This document shows positions 6,201 to 13,636 of a DNA stretch of 64,000 bases, piece by piece; the stretch's first letter is position 1; each line of letters starts with the position of its first letter. Origin of the DNA: Streptomyces pristinaespiralis (lineage in GTDB: Bacteria > Actinomycetota > Actinomycetes > Streptomycetales > Streptomycetaceae). A program made the translations under genes and the position numbers. The stretch lies in assembly GCF_001278075.1 (NCBI RefSeq), contig NZ_CP011340.1, forward strand, positions 6,941,501 through 7,005,500, written 5' to 3'. A model generated the notes under the pieces. The model did not search any database, had not been told where the DNA came from, and was given only the letters and a program-made list of their open reading frames with translations.

Positions 6201-7691
<1,491 letters not shown>

Positions 7692-7717
7692 CGTGGGGGC
7701 GCCGTCGCCCCTTCTGC

Positions 7718-7767
7718 CGGCGCGTCGAGGTCCGGACCGGCCGACCGGTCCGGACCTCGACGCGCCG
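7718..7767. terminator. Perfect 23-bp stem-loop, bidirectional terminator
   Basis: Arms 7718-7740 and 7745-7767 are exact reverse complements around the 4-nt loop CCGA. It sits between argH and the converging helR-like gene and probably ends both transcripts. Confidence 0.85.
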
Positions 7768-7784
7768 CGTGCGTCCCTTTGACG

Positions 7785-9992
7785 TCAGGCGCTCGTGAGG
7801 ATGACGAGCTGCTGGGTCGCCCGGGTCATCGCCACATAGCGGTCGACCGCTCCCTCGACGCCCTCGCCGAACGCCTCCGGGTCGACGAGGACGACCAGGT
7901 CGAACTCCAGCCCCTTCGACAGCTCCGGGGTCAGCGACCGGACACGGGGTGTCGTCGGCCGGAACGCGGGATCGCCGATGACGCAGGCGATCCCCTCGGC
8001 GTGTGCGGCGAGCCAGGTGTCGAGGACCGGGGCGAGATCCGAAACGGCTCCGTGGACGACGGGGACGCCGCTGCTGCGGATGGAGGCCGGCACGTTGGCG
8101 TCGGGGAGCACGGCACGGATGACCGGCTCGGCCTCCGTCATGACCTCTTCCGGCGTCCGGTAGTTGACGTTCAGGGACGTCAGTTCGACCCGGTCGAGCC
8201 CGACCCGCTCCAGCCGTTCCCGCCACGACTCGGTGAACCCGTGCCTGGCCTGGGCACGGTCCCCGACGATGGTGAAGCTCCGGGACGGGCACCGCTGCAG
8301 CAGCATCTGCCACTCCGCGTCGGTCAGCTCCTGCGCCTCGTCCACCACGATGTGCGCGAACGGCCCGGCCAGCAGGTCCGGTTCGACGCCCGGTGACGCG
8401 TTCTCGTCGACCAGGGCGTCGTGGAAGTCCTCGCCGCGGAGCATCGTCACCAGGCCCGTCCCGTACTCGTCGTCGGCGACCTCGATCAGGGAGTCGACGA
8501 CCCTGGCCATGTGCTCCCGTTCGGCGGCGACAGCCGCGTTCTGCCGCCTCTTGCGCCGCGCCGCCTCCGGGTCGCCGAGCCGCTGCCGTGCCGCGTCCAG
8601 GAGCGGCAGGTCGGACACCGTCCAGGCCTGGGCGTCGGCGCGCTGCAGTTTCCGCACCTCGTCGCGGCTGAGCCAGGGAGCGCACATCCGCAGGTAGGCG
8701 GGGACCGACCACAGGTCGGAGACGAGGTCGGCCGCCTCGAGCAGCGGCCACGCGCGGTTGAAGGCCGTGAGCAGCTCCCTGTTCTGCCGCAGCGACCTGC
8801 GGAGCAGGGCGTCCGGGACCTCCCCGTCGTCCGCGGAGGCGTCGCCCTCGTGCTTGTCCACCAGGATCGTGAGCAGCTCCTCCCAGACCAGGTCACGCGC
8901 CTCGTTGTGCGGGACTCCGGGCTCCGCCGCCTCGAACGCCACGGCCCATTCACGGGCGCTCAGCCAGATGTCGGACCAGTGGGTCGTGACCGTCATCCCC
9001 TCGGTGGGCGGCTCCTCGTAGAACCTGACGGCCTTCTCGATCGCTTTGACCAGATCCGCCGACGACTTCAGGCGGGCCACGTCCGGATCGCTCTCGATCC
9101 TCGCCGCGGCTCCCTCGGCGACGAGGTCCCGCAGGACGCAGGTCTGCACGCCCTCCTCTCCGAGGCTGGGCAGCACGTCCGCGACGTAGCCCAGGTAGGG
9201 CCGGCTGGGACCGACGAAGAGCACGCCGCCCCGGCGGTGACCGAGACGGGGGTCGGAGTACAGGAGGTACGCGGAGCGGTGCAGGGCGACCACGGTCTTC
9301 CCCGTGCCCGGACCGCCGTCCACGACGAGAGCGCCGCGGGACCCCGCGCGGATGATGGCGTCCTGGTCGGCCTGGATGGTGCCGAGGACGTCCCGCATCC
9401 GTTCCGACCGGTTGCTGCCCAGGCTGGCGATGAAGGCGGACTGGTCGTCGAGGGCGGCGTGCCCGGCGCAGCGCCTGATCAGCTCGTCCCCGACAAGACC
9501 GTCCGAGGTGAACACCTCGTCCCAGTAGTCGCTGATCCGGCCACGGGTCCAGCGGTATCTGCGGCGGCTCGCCAGACCCATCGGGTTGGCGTGGGTGGCT
9601 CCGAAGAACGGCTCGGCCGCGGGAGAGCGCCAGTCGACCAGCAGCTGCCGGCCCTCGCTGTCCGTGAGGCCGAGCCGTCCGACGTGGACGGGCTCGTCGG
9701 GGCTGTCCGCGTCGACCATGTGTCCGAGGCACAGGTCCAGGCCGAAGCGACGCAGGGTGCGCAGGCGGGTGGTCAGCCGGTGGATCTCCGCGTCCCGGTC
9801 CATCGCCTGCTGACCGATGCCGCCGGGCGCCTTGCGCTCTGCGTCGAGGCGGTCGGTCAGCTCGGCGATCGACTGCTCCAGACACGCCGAGATGGCCGCG
9901 AAGTGCTGCTCGTCGGCGGCGATCAGCGTCGGGTCGGCCTTGGAGGAGAGGCGGTCGGGAAGGTCGAACGCGCTGGTGGTCAGGGGGGTCAC
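7785..9992 (-). CDS. helR: HelD/HelR-type RNA polymerase-associated ATPase
   Basis: 735-residue UvrD-like protein. An N-terminal helical, charged region (about 1-110, with AAISACLEQSIAELTDRL) fits the coiled-coil arm of the HelD family. Walker A is GGPGTGKT at about 226-233; Walker B is VVDEAQE near residue 548; the C-terminal DRYVAMTRATQQLVIL is helicase motif VI. HelD-type proteins release stalled RNA polymerase; the actinobacterial HelR branch displaces rifamycins from the polymerase. The start GTG follows ACGGAG by about 9 nt. It lies 181 bp downstream of a rifamycin-type glycosyltransferase gene in the same direction, which favours HelR, but a plain HelD cannot be excluded without phylogeny. 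Confidence 0.75.
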   Translation of the reverse strand: MTPLTTSAFDLPDRLSSKADPTLIAADEQHFAAISACLEQSIAELTDRLDAERKAPGGIGQQAMDRDAEIHRLTTRLRTLRRFGLDLCLGHMVDADSPDEPVHVGRLGLTDSEGRQLLVDWRSPAAEPFFGATHANPMGLASRRRYRWTRGRISDYWDEVFTSDGLVGDELIRRCAGHAALDDQSAFIASLGSNRSERMRDVLGTIQADQDAIIRAGSRGALVVDGGPGTGKTVVALHRSAYLLYSDPRLGHRRGGVLFVGPSRPYLGYVADVLPSLGEEGVQTCVLRDLVAEGAAARIESDPDVARLKSSADLVKAIEKAVRFYEEPPTEGMTVTTHWSDIWLSAREWAVAFEAAEPGVPHNEARDLVWEELLTILVDKHEGDASADDGEVPDALLRRSLRQNRELLTAFNRAWPLLEAADLVSDLWSVPAYLRMCAPWLSRDEVRKLQRADAQAWTVSDLPLLDAARQRLGDPEAARRKRRQNAAVAAEREHMARVVDSLIEVADDEYGTGLVTMLRGEDFHDALVDENASPGVEPDLLAGPFAHIVVDEAQELTDAEWQMLLQRCPSRSFTIVGDRAQARHGFTESWRERLERVGLDRVELTSLNVNYRTPEEVMTEAEPVIRAVLPDANVPASIRSSGVPVVHGAVSDLAPVLDTWLAAHAEGIACVIGDPAFRPTTPRVRSLTPELSKGLEFDLVVLVDPEAFGEGVEGAVDRYVAMTRATQQLVILTSA

Positions 9993-10173
9993 GTCATCAG
10001 CTCCGTTGTGAGGCCGCTTGCAGGTGTCGCGTGCAGCAGGTCGTCCGGACCGTTGTGCCGAACCGGGTGGTCATTCCGGGCGACGCTCCGCCCGGCGTGC
10101 ACCCGACGGCCGGGGCCGGCGCGGGTCGCCAGGGTTCGCGGGTTCTCGTGTTCCGGTTCGGCGGTCCCGTGGG

Positions 10174-11409
10174 TCACGCGGACGGGGGCGGCCATTCCTG
10201 GCCGACCGTATCGAACAGCAGCTTCGCGGCCACCATCGCTCCGTCGGTGCGGACCTTGCCGGCCACGGCCTTCGCCCGGTCCCGGGTCTCCGGCGTCAGG
10301 GCAGCCCCGAGCGCGGCCGACAGGGACTCGAGGGTCGGGGTCGGACCGTCATGGGCCGCGCCGATGCCCAACTCGGCCACCCGGCTTGCCCAGTAGGGCT
10401 GGTCGACCGACTGGGGCACCACCACCTGCGGCGTGCCGGAAAGGGTGGCCGTCGTCGTCGTGCCCGCACCGCCGTGATGCACGACGGCGGCCACCCGGCC
10501 GAAGAGCGCCTGGTGGTTGACCTCGCCGACGGCGAAGCAGTCGTCATGGTCGTCGGTCAGCGCCAGGTCGGCCCAGCCGCGGGAGAGGAGTACGCGGCGG
10601 CCCTGCGCGCGGACCGCCTCGACCACCACGTGGGCGGCGTCCGTCGACGTGTGCAGGGGCATGCTGCCGAAGCCCACGTACACCGGTGGTTCGCCCGCGT
10701 CCAGGAACGCCGCCAACTCGTCGGGCAGCGGGCGTTCGTCCGGCAGGGTCCACGCGCCGGTCTGCACCACGTCGAGGTCCGCCGGCTCCTGCCACGGGTC
10801 GAGGACCGGGTCCGTCGCAAGCCACGGGCGGTCGCCGAAGACGTAGTCGCGGACGCCCGTCACCGGCGGCAGGCCCGCCGACGCCCGGCTGGTGTTGAGC
10901 GCCTCACCGAACAGTGCGTCGATGCTCTGTGCGTCCAGCTCCCACAGCACCCGGTTGTCGGTCACGTCCGGCGGGAAGGGCCTGCCCGCGTACGCCAGCG
11001 GCGGGTGGTGCGGCGACGGCAGGGTGAGCTGCTGGAAGGTCACGGACACCGAGGGGATGCCCAGCTTCTCGGCCACCGACAGTGCGCCGGCCGCGGCCGG
11101 CATCGGGCCGGTCGCCACCAGGACGTCACATCCCTCGGCCGCCGGGGGGACCGCGGCGAACACATCGGCGATCAGCGCGGCGCCGCGCTCGGGCAGGGAC
11201 GACGCCGGCGGCGCCGCCTTCGTCAGCGCGCGCGCCGACGGGCCGACCGGGACCAGCGGCACGCCCACACCGGCCAGGCGCTGCGCGAAGTCCTCGTCCG
11301 GCGGCGCGCACACCCGTACCTCGGCGCCCAGTTCCCGCAGCCGCACCGCGAGTCCCACCAGTGGTTCGACGTCACCGCGCGACCCGTACGTCGACAACAA
11401 CACACGCAT
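10174..11409 (-). CDS. rgt: GT-B glycosyltransferase, probable rifamycin glycosyltransferase
   Basis: 411 residues, of the antibiotic-glycosyltransferase (GT1) family. The N-terminus RVLLSTYGSRGDVEPLVGLA and the C-terminal donor-binding block HHGGAGTTTTATLSG followed by QVVVPQSVDQPYWA (about 308-345) are typical. Enzymes of this group include macrolide, vancomycin and rifamycin glycosyltransferases; there is no biosynthetic cluster around it, and a rifamycin-associated-element-like palindrome lies 59 bp upstream, so inactivation of rifamycin by sugar transfer is the most likely role. Exact acceptor specificity is inference. ATG 11409 is the only good start. Confidence 0.7.
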   Translation of the reverse strand: MRVLLSTYGSRGDVEPLVGLAVRLRELGAEVRVCAPPDEDFAQRLAGVGVPLVPVGPSARALTKAAPPASSLPERGAALIADVFAAVPPAAEGCDVLVATGPMPAAAGALSVAEKLGIPSVSVTFQQLTLPSPHHPPLAYAGRPFPPDVTDNRVLWELDAQSIDALFGEALNTSRASAGLPPVTGVRDYVFGDRPWLATDPVLDPWQEPADLDVVQTGAWTLPDERPLPDELAAFLDAGEPPVYVGFGSMPLHTSTDAAHVVVEAVRAQGRRVLLSRGWADLALTDDHDDCFAVGEVNHQALFGRVAAVVHHGGAGTTTTATLSGTPQVVVPQSVDQPYWASRVAELGIGAAHDGPTPTLESLSAALGAALTPETRDRAKAVAGKVRTDGAMVAAKLLFDTVGQEWPPPSA

Positions 11410-11425
11410 TTCGTAACGCTCGCTT

Positions 11426-11459
11426 CCGCAGATTCCGGCTCAGGCCGGAGATTCTGCGG
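11426..11459 (-). promoter_or_regulatory. Leader hairpin upstream of rgt
   Basis: Imperfect inverted repeat (arms starting CCGCAGA...TCCGGC and returning GCCGGA...TTCTGCGG) with a small internal asymmetry, lying between the RAE-like site and the rgt start. If transcription starts near the RAE-like site it may partly overlap the -10 or fold in the 5' leader. Confidence 0.4.
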
Positions 11460-11467
11460 CACGACGG

Positions 11468-11486
11468 GGGCCTTGCGGCAAGCCCC
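11468..11486 (-). promoter_or_regulatory. RAE-like 19-bp inverted repeat
   Basis: Read on the minus strand: GGGGCTTGCCGCAAGGCCC, arms around a central base with one mismatched pair; G/C flanks extend the pairing to 11466-11488. It matches the form of the rifamycin-associated element (RAE) that I recall upstream of rifamycin-inducible genes in actinomycetes. TTGCCG inside it could serve as -35, with CAGAAT 18 bp further on as -10. Confidence 0.7.
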
Positions 11487-11578
11487 CCGGTGCGCTATAC
11501 CTTGAGCATGGCAAGGAGTGGTCGTACCTCCTTGCCTCTTTTCATCTCTCCGGCCGGCCGACGGATCCGCTCGAGCCG

Positions 11579-12136
11579 TCAGTCGATCTGCTCGCAGATG
11601 TCCGTCGTCGATCCGTGGGCCATGGTGACCTCCTTGTAGCCGGACGAGCTGATGTCGATGGTGTAGACACCGTCCACGACGTACAGTCCCCGGCCCAGGT
11701 TGCCGGCGCCCTCGCCGACCCCGACCAGTACCGGGCCGAGCACCGACCAGAACTGGGAGCCGTCGGTGCGGTGGTCGACGACGGCCGTGCCGCTGACGTC
11801 GGCGTCGTAGGAGTCGCCGGTCTCCTTGTTGGTGACCCGCACGATCAGATCGCCCTTGTAGGCGACCAGCTTCGGCCTTCCGTCGGGGTGGGTCTCCAGC
11901 ACGCGCCGGACCACCTCGTCCACGACGGGCTCGCCGTGGACGGGGAAGTCGCAGCGCAGGCCCGCCGCGACGTCCCACGGGGCGGACGGCGACGGCTCCC
12001 AGCCGGTGTCGAGGCCGCTGCCGAGGCCGGCCTCTGCACCGGCGGACCGCGCGGCCTGACCGGAGGCGGACGCGGGGGCGGCGCCCATGAGCGTGGTCGC
12101 GGCAACCGCCGCCAGAGCAACAGCCGTTCGTCGCAT
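11579..12136 (-). CDS. Secreted hypothetical protein
   Basis: 185 residues with a clear Sec signal peptide: basic start MRRT, hydrophobic run and a cleavage-like APASASG at about residues 20-26. The mature part has no recognised domain; it has a segment with DLIVRVTNKETGDSYDADVSG and a glycine-rich stretch VGVGEGAGNLGRG that suggest a beta-rich extracellular fold. The function is unknown. It is transcribed divergently from the SARP-like gene that starts 163 bp away. Confidence 0.8.
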   Translation of the reverse strand: MRRTAVALAAVAATTLMGAAPASASGQAARSAGAEAGLGSGLDTGWEPSPSAPWDVAAGLRCDFPVHGEPVVDEVVRRVLETHPDGRPKLVAYKGDLIVRVTNKETGDSYDADVSGTAVVDHRTDGSQFWSVLGPVLVGVGEGAGNLGRGLYVVDGVYTIDISSSGYKEVTMAHGSTTDICEQID

Positions 12137-12298
12137 GGAGACTCCCTGAGGACGTGGTCGGACCGAGACGTGACCGGGCCGAGAAGGATCGGACCGCGGA
12201 AGCGGTCCTGCTTGTCCGCACCAGCCTGTCCCCGCCGTCTGACCACGCTCTCACCACCGCTGTGCACCGCCGCGCCCGCCGGTTAGGCTCGCGGACCC

Positions 12299-13636
12299 AT
12301 GGAGTTCCAGTTGCTGGGTCCGTTCGAGGCCCGTCACGAAGGAGACCGGGTCCTGGTGGGCAGCCGCCGCCAGGAGCGCTGCCTGCTGTCGATCCTCCTG
12401 CTGGAGCCGGGCCGGGTCGTGAGCACCGGCCGGCTCATCGATCTCCTGTGGGACGGCGACGCGCCCGCGTCCGCACGGGGCACCGTCCACACGTACATCG
12501 GCCGGCTCCGCGCCCGGCTGGGGCCGTACGGGGTGCGTGTCGAGACCCGCCACGACGGTTACGCCTTCGACCCGGGCCACCACACGGTCGACGCCCAGGA
12601 GTTCACGGACCTCGTCCGGCGGGCCGGGGGCGTCGCCGACGTGGCGCAGCGGGTGCGCCTGTACGACCGGGCCCTCGGACTGTGGCGGGGACCGCTGCTC
12701 GTCGACGTCGTGGACGACGGCCTGCGTGAGCGGCTCGGCGGGACGCTCGGCGAGCTCCGGCTGTCCGCGCTGGAGCATTGGGCGGAGGCGCAGTTGGAGC
12801 TCGGTATGCACGACCGGGTCGTCACGGACCTGACCGCGCTCGCCCGCGCGCATCCCGGCAGGGAACGGCTCGTCGCCGCGCAGATGACCGCCCTGTACCG
12901 GAGCGGCAGGCAGGCCGACGCCCTCGAGCTGTACCACGCCACCCGCAAGGCACTGGTGGCCGGTCTGGGCATCGAGCCCGGCGCCGGGCTGAACAGCCTG
13001 CACGAGCGGATGCTGCACGGCGATCCCCGGCTGCACCGCCCGCCCGTGCCCCTGTACGCGGTACGGGTCGACGAGGAATGGCTGCCCTGGACCACCAGCG
13101 GCCATCCGGCGCTCGAGTTCTGCAACACGTACGCCGGCTGGGGCGGGCCCGGCCTGCCGGGATCGGAATGGCTGCGCACGTACCGCACGCTCGCCGTCTG
13201 GGCCGGGCACCTGGACCTCGCGGAGGATTGGCTGGTGGCCGGCCTGCTCAAGAGGGCACGGCAGCGGCCCGAGGAGGCGGCGGCCGTTCTCGGGGAGGCG
13301 CGGGAGTTCCGTACACGGCTGTACGCCGCTCTGACCGGTCCCGACGACGTGCGGGCGTTCAAGGCAGTGGCCGATGTCGCGGAGGACGCCGCGAAGGCGT
13401 CGGCGTTCGTCCGCGGCGACGACGGCCTCGGCCGCTGGCGGCTGTCCCCGTCCGCCGGGCTGCGGCTGCCGGTGCTCGCCGTGGCCGGCAGCGCCGCGGA
13501 GCTGCTGGCGGACCCGGGGCGGTTCACCGTCCGCGCCTGCCCCGGCGCCGACTGCGGCTGGCTGTTCACGGACGAGAGCGGCCGGCGCAGGTGGTGCAGC
13601 CTCAGAACCTGCGGAAAAGAGATGCCAGTGTACTGA
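12299..13636 (+). CDS. SARP-type regulator fused to ABATE/CGNR zinc-finger region
   Basis: 445 residues. Residues 1-95 form an OmpR-like winged helix as in SARP/AfsR regulators (FQLLGPFEA, then RGTVHTYIGRLRARLG); about 96-240 form the bacterial transcriptional activation domain (BTAD). The rest is unusual: GHPALEFCNTYAGWGGPG and following helices resemble the ABATE domain, and the tail ACPGADCGWLF...WCSLRTCGK is a CGNR-type zinc finger with four cysteines, reading CGKE instead of CGNR. The protein is probably a transcription factor with an added sensor/DNA-binding end. The target is not known; TetR and MFS genes follow directly. Confidence 0.75.
   Translation: MEFQLLGPFEARHEGDRVLVGSRRQERCLLSILLLEPGRVVSTGRLIDLLWDGDAPASARGTVHTYIGRLRARLGPYGVRVETRHDGYAFDPGHHTVDAQEFTDLVRRAGGVADVAQRVRLYDRALGLWRGPLLVDVVDDGLRERLGGTLGELRLSALEHWAEAQLELGMHDRVVTDLTALARAHPGRERLVAAQMTALYRSGRQADALELYHATRKALVAGLGIEPGAGLNSLHERMLHGDPRLHRPPVPLYAVRVDEEWLPWTTSGHPALEFCNTYAGWGGPGLPGSEWLRTYRTLAVWAGHLDLAEDWLVAGLLKRARQRPEEAAAVLGEAREFRTRLYAALTGPDDVRAFKAVADVAEDAAKASAFVRGDDGLGRWRLSPSAGLRLPVLAVAGSAAELLADPGRFTVRACPGADCGWLFTDESGRRRWCSLRTCGKEMPVY

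Follow-up and report, generated by a model that had tools for sequence, protein, structure and literature searches.

In a 64,000-nucleotide stretch of Streptomyces pristinaespiralis (contig NZ_CP011340.1, positions 6,941,501 to 7,005,500), hereafter the window, a 19-bp palindrome, the rifamycin-associated element (RAE, 11468..11486), precedes two minus-strand genes, one coding for a glycosyltransferase (GT, 10174..11409) and the other for an RNA polymerase recycling ATPase of the HelR type (helR, 7785..9992). We consider it reasonably probable that these form a rifamycin-responsive GT-helR operon in which the RAE would supply the –35 element for both a sense promoter and a dead-end antisense promoter. 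The anatomy of the locus, the extent to which it is conserved and the way in which the GT gene has decayed in relatives were obtained directly here. The initial annotation of this DNA had placed the inverted repeat at 11468-11486 (minus strand GGGGCTTGCCGCAAGGCCC), followed by a GT gene and a HelD-superfamily ATPase gene in the same direction with a 181-bp gap, and all this is present as described; the repeat does lie upstream of the GT gene, at 58 bp from its start (11409) rather than the 59 bp given.

The identification of the repeat as an RAE was borne out by a match to the palindrome GGGNCTTGCNGCAAGNCCC with zero mismatches, the centre base being free, and the same element was found 5′ of rox, rph, arr, rgt and helR genes elsewhere. 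At up to 3 mismatches the RAE was unique in the window (once per strand), shuffled sequences giving a mean of 0.05 matches and two or more matches in 1 of 100 cases. Only three sites in the 8.53-Mb genome matched with zero mismatches under the same rule, and the next-best site had 2. The two others, identical to each other and placed symmetrically at 147 kb from either contig end, precede a rifampin monooxygenase (rox) gene whose product reached 851.8 bits with its NCBIfam model (cut-off 800); the RAE units of the genome are thus of two kinds, rox, present twice, and GT-helR. NCBIfam cut-offs were passed downstream of RAEs by the helR studied here and the rox of this genome, and elsewhere by one rph and two arr genes. 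Moreover, a survey of Actinomycetes-class genomes (300 requested, 296 searched) with the exact RAE pattern, three bases being free, revealed it in 114 of 296, against 3 of 296 for a reversed control pattern counted from the survey table.

The flanks of the RAE were compared in 131 sequences, namely a nearer set of 77 (75 helR loci, the window and the rox of the genome) and a wide set of 54. The helR loci derive from the best 80 of at least 579 confirmed helR relatives, taken from named genomes, 75 of which had an RAE with at most 2 mismatches (centre uncounted) within 2.5 kb upstream of helR. The wide set consisted of 30 survey loci and 40 more stretches, picked from part of the survey matches to spread over families; these 70 were reduced to 54 by removing 12 repeats of sites, two loci with no identified target (L138, L150) and two RAEs too near the locus end (L108, L111). 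Each flank was oriented by its downstream gene (helR, rgt, rox, rph or arr), independently of promoter motifs. The flanks covered five gene types and 19 family labels (5 named families and 14 codes, with possible overlap), and relatedness among them inflates the counts that follow. Conservation reached far past the 19-bp RAE in the nearer set, as seen in a gap-free alignment from –34 to +45.

The RAE holds TTGC on both strands, each usable as a –35 element. The proposed sense –35, TTGCCG (11476..11481, minus strand), lies 19 bp from the proposed –10 of the GT-helR transcript, CAGAAT (11451..11456, minus strand), and the proposed antisense –35, TTGCGG (11473..11478, plus strand), lies 19 bp from the proposed antisense –10, TACCTT (11498..11503, plus strand). 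The antisense TANNNT was found at positions –17 to –12 of the RAE in 77 of 77 nearer and 53 of 54 wide-set flanks (130/131), and at any other offset from –30 to –4 in at most one flank per set. Similarly, the sense NANNNT was found at +30 to +35 in 77/77 and 52/54 flanks (129/131); this looser pattern occurred also at +33 (25 and 12 flanks) and +32 (16 and 7), and elsewhere between +20 and +44 in at most 5. The two –10 places are exact reflections of each other across the middle of the RAE, with 19 bp separating either one from a TTGC in it, and differ in their first base, which was T in all 131 antisense elements and never T in the sense ones (C in 127, G in 3, A in 1). The off-pattern flanks were L137, for both –10 elements, and L167, for the sense one only; L137 is a helR match lacking its middle part. 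All eight arr sites fitted the –10 pattern, and neither –10 element was found at the six RAE-like sites of this genome with 2–3 mismatches (0/6). The rox units of the genome (G000 C1:147237 and C1:8385338; L001, L003, L097) carried the same –10 elements and upstream hairpin as the window.

This hairpin (11510..11536, plus strand) begins at the predicted antisense start point and is followed by a U-rich tract, TCTTTTCATCTCT (11537..11549, plus strand). The antisense fold over 11510-11549 had a minimum free energy of –17.4 kcal/mol and a z of –5.08, against 0.97 for the sense strand over 11405-11444, and its arms covary in relatives. At least 8 of 9 bases were paired in 61 of the 77 nearer flanks, whereas five control windows gave at most 1 of 77; each arm scored 8.01 with its own partner, against a permuted mean of 7.24 (maximum 7.43 of 300) and 5.84 for shuffled upstream sequence, and the loops measured 4–10 nt in 59 of the 61 flanks. 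In these 61 flanks the ten bases that precede the left arm on the sense strand were A-rich (0.26–0.80, against a background of 0.16), so that the antisense RNA would carry a U-tract, and no T run followed the right arm on the sense strand in the flanks of relatives. Folds of 35 nt with z below –2 occurred on the antisense strand in 44/77 nearer and 18/54 wide-set flanks, and on the sense strand in 3/77 and 1/54. The hairpin at the predicted antisense start is a feature of Streptomyces and nearer kin. A generic terminator scan of 7600-12300 returned no site; the scan accepts only loops of up to 8 nt, and the 11510-11536 hairpin was therefore missed too.

Two other pairings around the RAE were tried and rejected. 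The RAE does not appear to pair with the upstream hairpin, which by eye shifts to GGAAAGG/CCTTTCC in relatives with the RAE unchanged. A CCGCAG..CTGCGG repeat downstream of the RAE failed as an RNA hairpin, own arms scoring 4.80 of 7 against 5.12 for the majority arm in the 41 flanks whose left arm differs from it; the CTGCGG itself was present in 39 of 77 flanks, shuffles giving 0.8.

These features give the RAE the appearance of a palindromic –35 element common to a weak productive promoter and a stronger dead-end one. We infer the antisense promoter from the sequence, and with it promoter activity, induction, drug modification and the trigger. RNA polymerase would start at the RAE –35 and the weak –10 CAGAAT, transcribing the GT gene and then helR, and the RAE would also be the –35 of an opposite-facing promoter with the better –10 TACCTT, whose RNA would terminate after about 35–40 nt. 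Because RNA polymerase can use a single orientation at a time, the dead-end promoter would probably keep the operon low; the drug, alone or via an RAE-binding factor, would shift the balance to the operon, the GT would probably glycosylate rifamycin and HelR would take rifamycin off RNA polymerase.

Known systems offer partial parallels. Start-site mapping in M. smegmatis revealed a helD sense promoter with a –35 overlapping the RAE (PMC10719064), in agreement with the sense –10 proposed here. In B. subtilis, a stronger antisense promoter can render helD rifampicin-inducible (PMC12802891); this rifampicin alarm resembles the arrangement proposed here in that helD and the gene of a drug-modifying enzyme are preceded by two promoters, of which the antisense one is stronger than the sense one, and differs in that its two promoters converge, 39 bp apart, whereas the –10 elements proposed here face apart, the promoters standing back to back with a –35 in common. 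The bidirectional promoters of E. coli likewise contain pseudo-symmetrical DNA that can hold polymerase in either orientation, and substantial activation of one direction can bring them into competition (PMC12825309). As in these promoters, the elements around the RAE lie on both strands in symmetry, at least as a matter of sequence; here, in contrast, the symmetry is in the –35 and one direction is apparently terminated at once. No prior description of a mirrored antisense –10 with a terminator was found in the accessible portions of the open-licence literature.

Several points weigh against the shared –35 arrangement. The 19-bp spacers exceed the usual 17, and a generic sigma-70 scan with spacers of 16–18 detected neither RAE promoter. 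The hairpin was missing at the arr sites (0/8 with z below –2) and rarer in the wide set (18/54), which means that not every RAE has a dead end. In E. coli, none of the five promoters tested had enough basal transcription for competition to occur (PMC12825309), and a strong competition effect is therefore disfavoured if both RAE promoters are weak. Moreover, the two-promoter system of B. subtilis lost induction when its promoters overlapped sterically (PMC12802891), and here a polymerase stalled by the drug at the antisense promoter would sit over the sense promoter. Because overlap abolished induction in that system, the back-to-back version needs an extra step, in which the stalled polymerase would be removed, perhaps by HelR, or a factor would act on the RAE. 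A transcription factor on the RAE, including one from a small linked gene, may also be compatible with the observed anatomy.

Such a factor is central to the best-surviving alternative, which we regard as quite plausible, if somewhat short of probable: the RAE would be the operator of a dimeric factor sensing the drug or stalled polymerase, the mirrored –10 elements would follow from its symmetry and the terminator would silence a by-product. The near-perfect dyad fits this explanation, as does the published view of a possible unknown factor expressed in the accessible parts of PMC10719064 and PMC12802891. Position 4/16 of the RAE was variable in the alignment of relatives and its pairing was not kept, as could be expected of protein-DNA contacts. 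A by-product promoter should decay, however, and the antisense –10 retained its initial T in 131/131 flanks when the sense one never had it. Nor did the neighbourhood of the 80 helR loci reveal a gene for such a factor: the protein clusters present in at least 14 loci were, by position, helR, the GT or other frames over them, and no other neighbour recurred in more than 7 of 80 (proteins of at least 120 aa, with at least 35% identity over 60% of the length). Since only helR and the GT recur more widely than this, a linked regulator of at least 120 aa is not indicated.

A bolder form of the shared –35 proposal, which we advance tentatively and consider doubtful, dispenses with an operator. The RAE would then be a sensor made of promoter DNA alone, its palindromic –35 accepting RNA polymerase in both orientations. 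Most of the normal polymerase would enter the antisense dead end, producing in Streptomyces and its kin a terminated RNA of about 36 nt, and rifamycin interference would tip the choice to the sense resistance promoter. Throughout the Actinomycetes the same device, with its fixed 19-bp mirror spacing, would precede helR, rgt, rox, rph and arr.

Both genes downstream of the RAE are full-length open frames. The product of helR (735 aa, GTG start) scored 1276 bits with the NCBIfam model NF041254 (motor_HelR, cut-off 750), and remained below the cut-offs of the HelD models HelD_MYCSM (382 bits, cut-off 1051) and HelD_BACSU (92, cut-off 419), which upholds the initial annotation in naming it HelR rather than HelD; with a second HelR model, NF041258, it reached 431 bits (cut-off 1100). 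It is homologous to M. smegmatis HelD (6yxu_H, E 2.8e-99) across residues 29-732, despite falling far under the HelD_MYCSM cut-off, and aligning the two sequences showed no large gap in the PCh-loop region typical of Class II. The genome contains four HelD-like matches, only the helR of the window having an RAE of the zero-mismatch kind nearby, and the second-best match misses both HelR cut-offs (442.5/750 and 684.5/1100 bits). Likewise, according to the literature consulted, one helD-like gene among several has an RAE in S. venezuelae, and RAEs precede helD genes in two actinobacterial branches, some genes of the group being devoid of the element (PMC8655204).

The GT (411 aa) is a full-length GT1-type enzyme matching GtfB (1iir, 477 bits), GtfD and GtfA, and its best NCBIfam model was Rgt (NF000354), with 497 bits against a cut-off of 800. 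Seven further RAE-linked GTs, of the 22 intact ones, scored 468–535 bits with this model, so that its cut-off excludes the whole GT sample. The enzyme is Rgt-like, and the earlier claim of a rifamycin GT was sustained by its position behind an RAE and by similarity, and not by the curated threshold; because that threshold was missed, activity on rifamycin can only be inferred from these two properties. It is unlikely that the substrate is instead a non-rifamycin, for example a glycopeptide-like compound: the shortfall with the Rgt model and the GtfB match would suit such a substrate, but the gene has an RAE and partners helR, and the seven other RAE-linked GTs scored likewise.

Another view of the promoter region, which seems distinctly unlikely, takes a TATAGC upstream of the RAE as the –10 of the sense promoter, so that the RAE itself would be transcribed. 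This motif is near-invariant in the 77 nearer flanks, a sense TANNNT stands at offset –18 in 9/77 and 16/54 flanks, and another M. smegmatis helD sense start was located about 20 bp upstream of the RAE (PMC10719064); no conserved –10 for a start at that distance was seen in Streptomyces flanks. Against it, TATAGC has no T at position 6, is not accompanied by an evident –35, and is absent from its place in 8/8 arr flanks, all eight of which keep the antisense TANNNT.

Comparison with relatives bears on whether helR belongs to the same transcript. An intact GT gene stood between the RAE and helR in 21 of the 80 loci, and in L082 the GT lies elsewhere with its own RAE. In these 21 loci the GT-helR gap ranged from –4 to 215 bp, beginning with two 4-bp overlaps followed by 1, 4, 28 and 33 bp, and the genes overlapped or lay at most 4 bp apart in 4; none of the 21 had an RAE (at most 2 mismatches) between GT and helR. 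In the window, the gap (9993..10173, minus strand) contains no RAE or terminator-like site. The weak hairpin at 10076-10095, raised in the initial annotation as an obstacle to co-transcription, was rejected as a terminator, the fold of 10040-10130 being ordinary (z = –0.08) and the generic scan showing no terminator-like site there. GT and helR are best read as one operon, as that annotation had suggested. It is highly unlikely that helR is driven by its own promoter in the 181-bp gap, outside the RAE transcript, since, long enough as the gap is and despite the additional housekeeping role of Class II HelD (PMC10719064), relatives have gaps as small as –4 bp that contain no RAE, loss of the GT leaves the RAE in front of helR, and no sigma-70-like site was detected in 7600-12300, by a scan that misses the RAE promoters too. 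The locus shares with the known RAE-controlled rgt, rox and helR genes the same 19-bp palindrome, the gene families and the 5′ position (PMC10719064, PMC8655204), and differs from those described in these sources in having two RAE targets under one element as an operon.

In the remaining loci the GT was missing or broken, with start, middle or end pieces lying in order between the RAE and helR. Where the GT was lost, the RAE preceded helR. Remnants with frame-keeping internal deletions were found in L030 and L068, and further remnants in L017, L035, L049, L055, L058 and others. As for the loci outside the 75, L084 and L089 had a more degenerate RAE upstream of helR with both –10 elements present, L027 was truncated by the contig end, and L031 and L048, both helR loci with a partial GT, had no RAE within 2.6 kb upstream of helR. 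Because these remnants sit between RAE and helR, an ancestral RAE-GT-helR operon seems to have lost its GT repeatedly. A helR tree from a quick LG+G4 search (81 rows: 22 intact GT including the window, 16 remnant and 43 none, where ‘none’ takes in remnants below 20 bits and ‘remnant’ takes in L027; 21 of 78 branches starred) required at least 16 changes of the intact-GT label, against a shuffled mean of 19.6, and at least 8 when the starred branches alone were trusted. The tree is blind to gain versus loss; the remnants argue for loss.

Several loci kept a short frame running from the old GT start to a stop beside the helR start (L018, L052, L056, L063, L066, L072, L078 and others). We rejected the idea that these start remnants are maintained by selection as a leader peptide that stops at the helR start, the peptide not being conserved: the 15 pairwise dN/dS values of six leaders were 0.6–1.3, whereas the same stretch of intact GTs (12 of 22) had a median pS of 0.25 and pN of 0.089. 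The stop beside the helR start derives from the sequence at the helR ribosome-binding site. In the six leaders the peptide is near-neutral, yet the frame remains open. In L015 and L055 the remnant frame continues in frame into helR (759 and 1014 aa). A GT fragment from about residue 225–240 was also seen just downstream of helR in L017, L042, L048 and L066, of which L042 has an intact GT as well, a trace of duplication or rearrangement. GT start remnants were observed between the RAE and rph, helR or rox at L124, L126 and L167, as though RAE and GT start had moved together, and in L059 the RAE-helR unit is placed on the 1.07-Mb plasmid SNP1 of Streptomyces nigrescens HEK616.

Around the unit, a long palindrome (7715..7771) between argH and helR is a possible common end of both transcripts. 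An open frame of 185 aa with no Pfam match (11579-12136) lies just upstream of the RAE in the same direction, and an Rfam scan of 7000-13000 gave five matches, each below its own gathering score.

Taken as a whole, RAE-GT-helR is a genuine unit, made of known kinds of parts in a shared arrangement. In the sample, which was drawn by helR and in which loss of helR is consequently under-seen, the GT was lost repeatedly and HelR or the RAE hardly ever, which suggests steadier selection on polymerase protection. For specialists, it is the mirrored promoter pair and its antisense terminator that deserve attention. How RAE-controlled genes sense rifamycin is left open in the accessible text of PMC10719064 and PMC12802891, and the mirrored –10 elements together with the antisense terminator make RAE sensing a simple, testable question.

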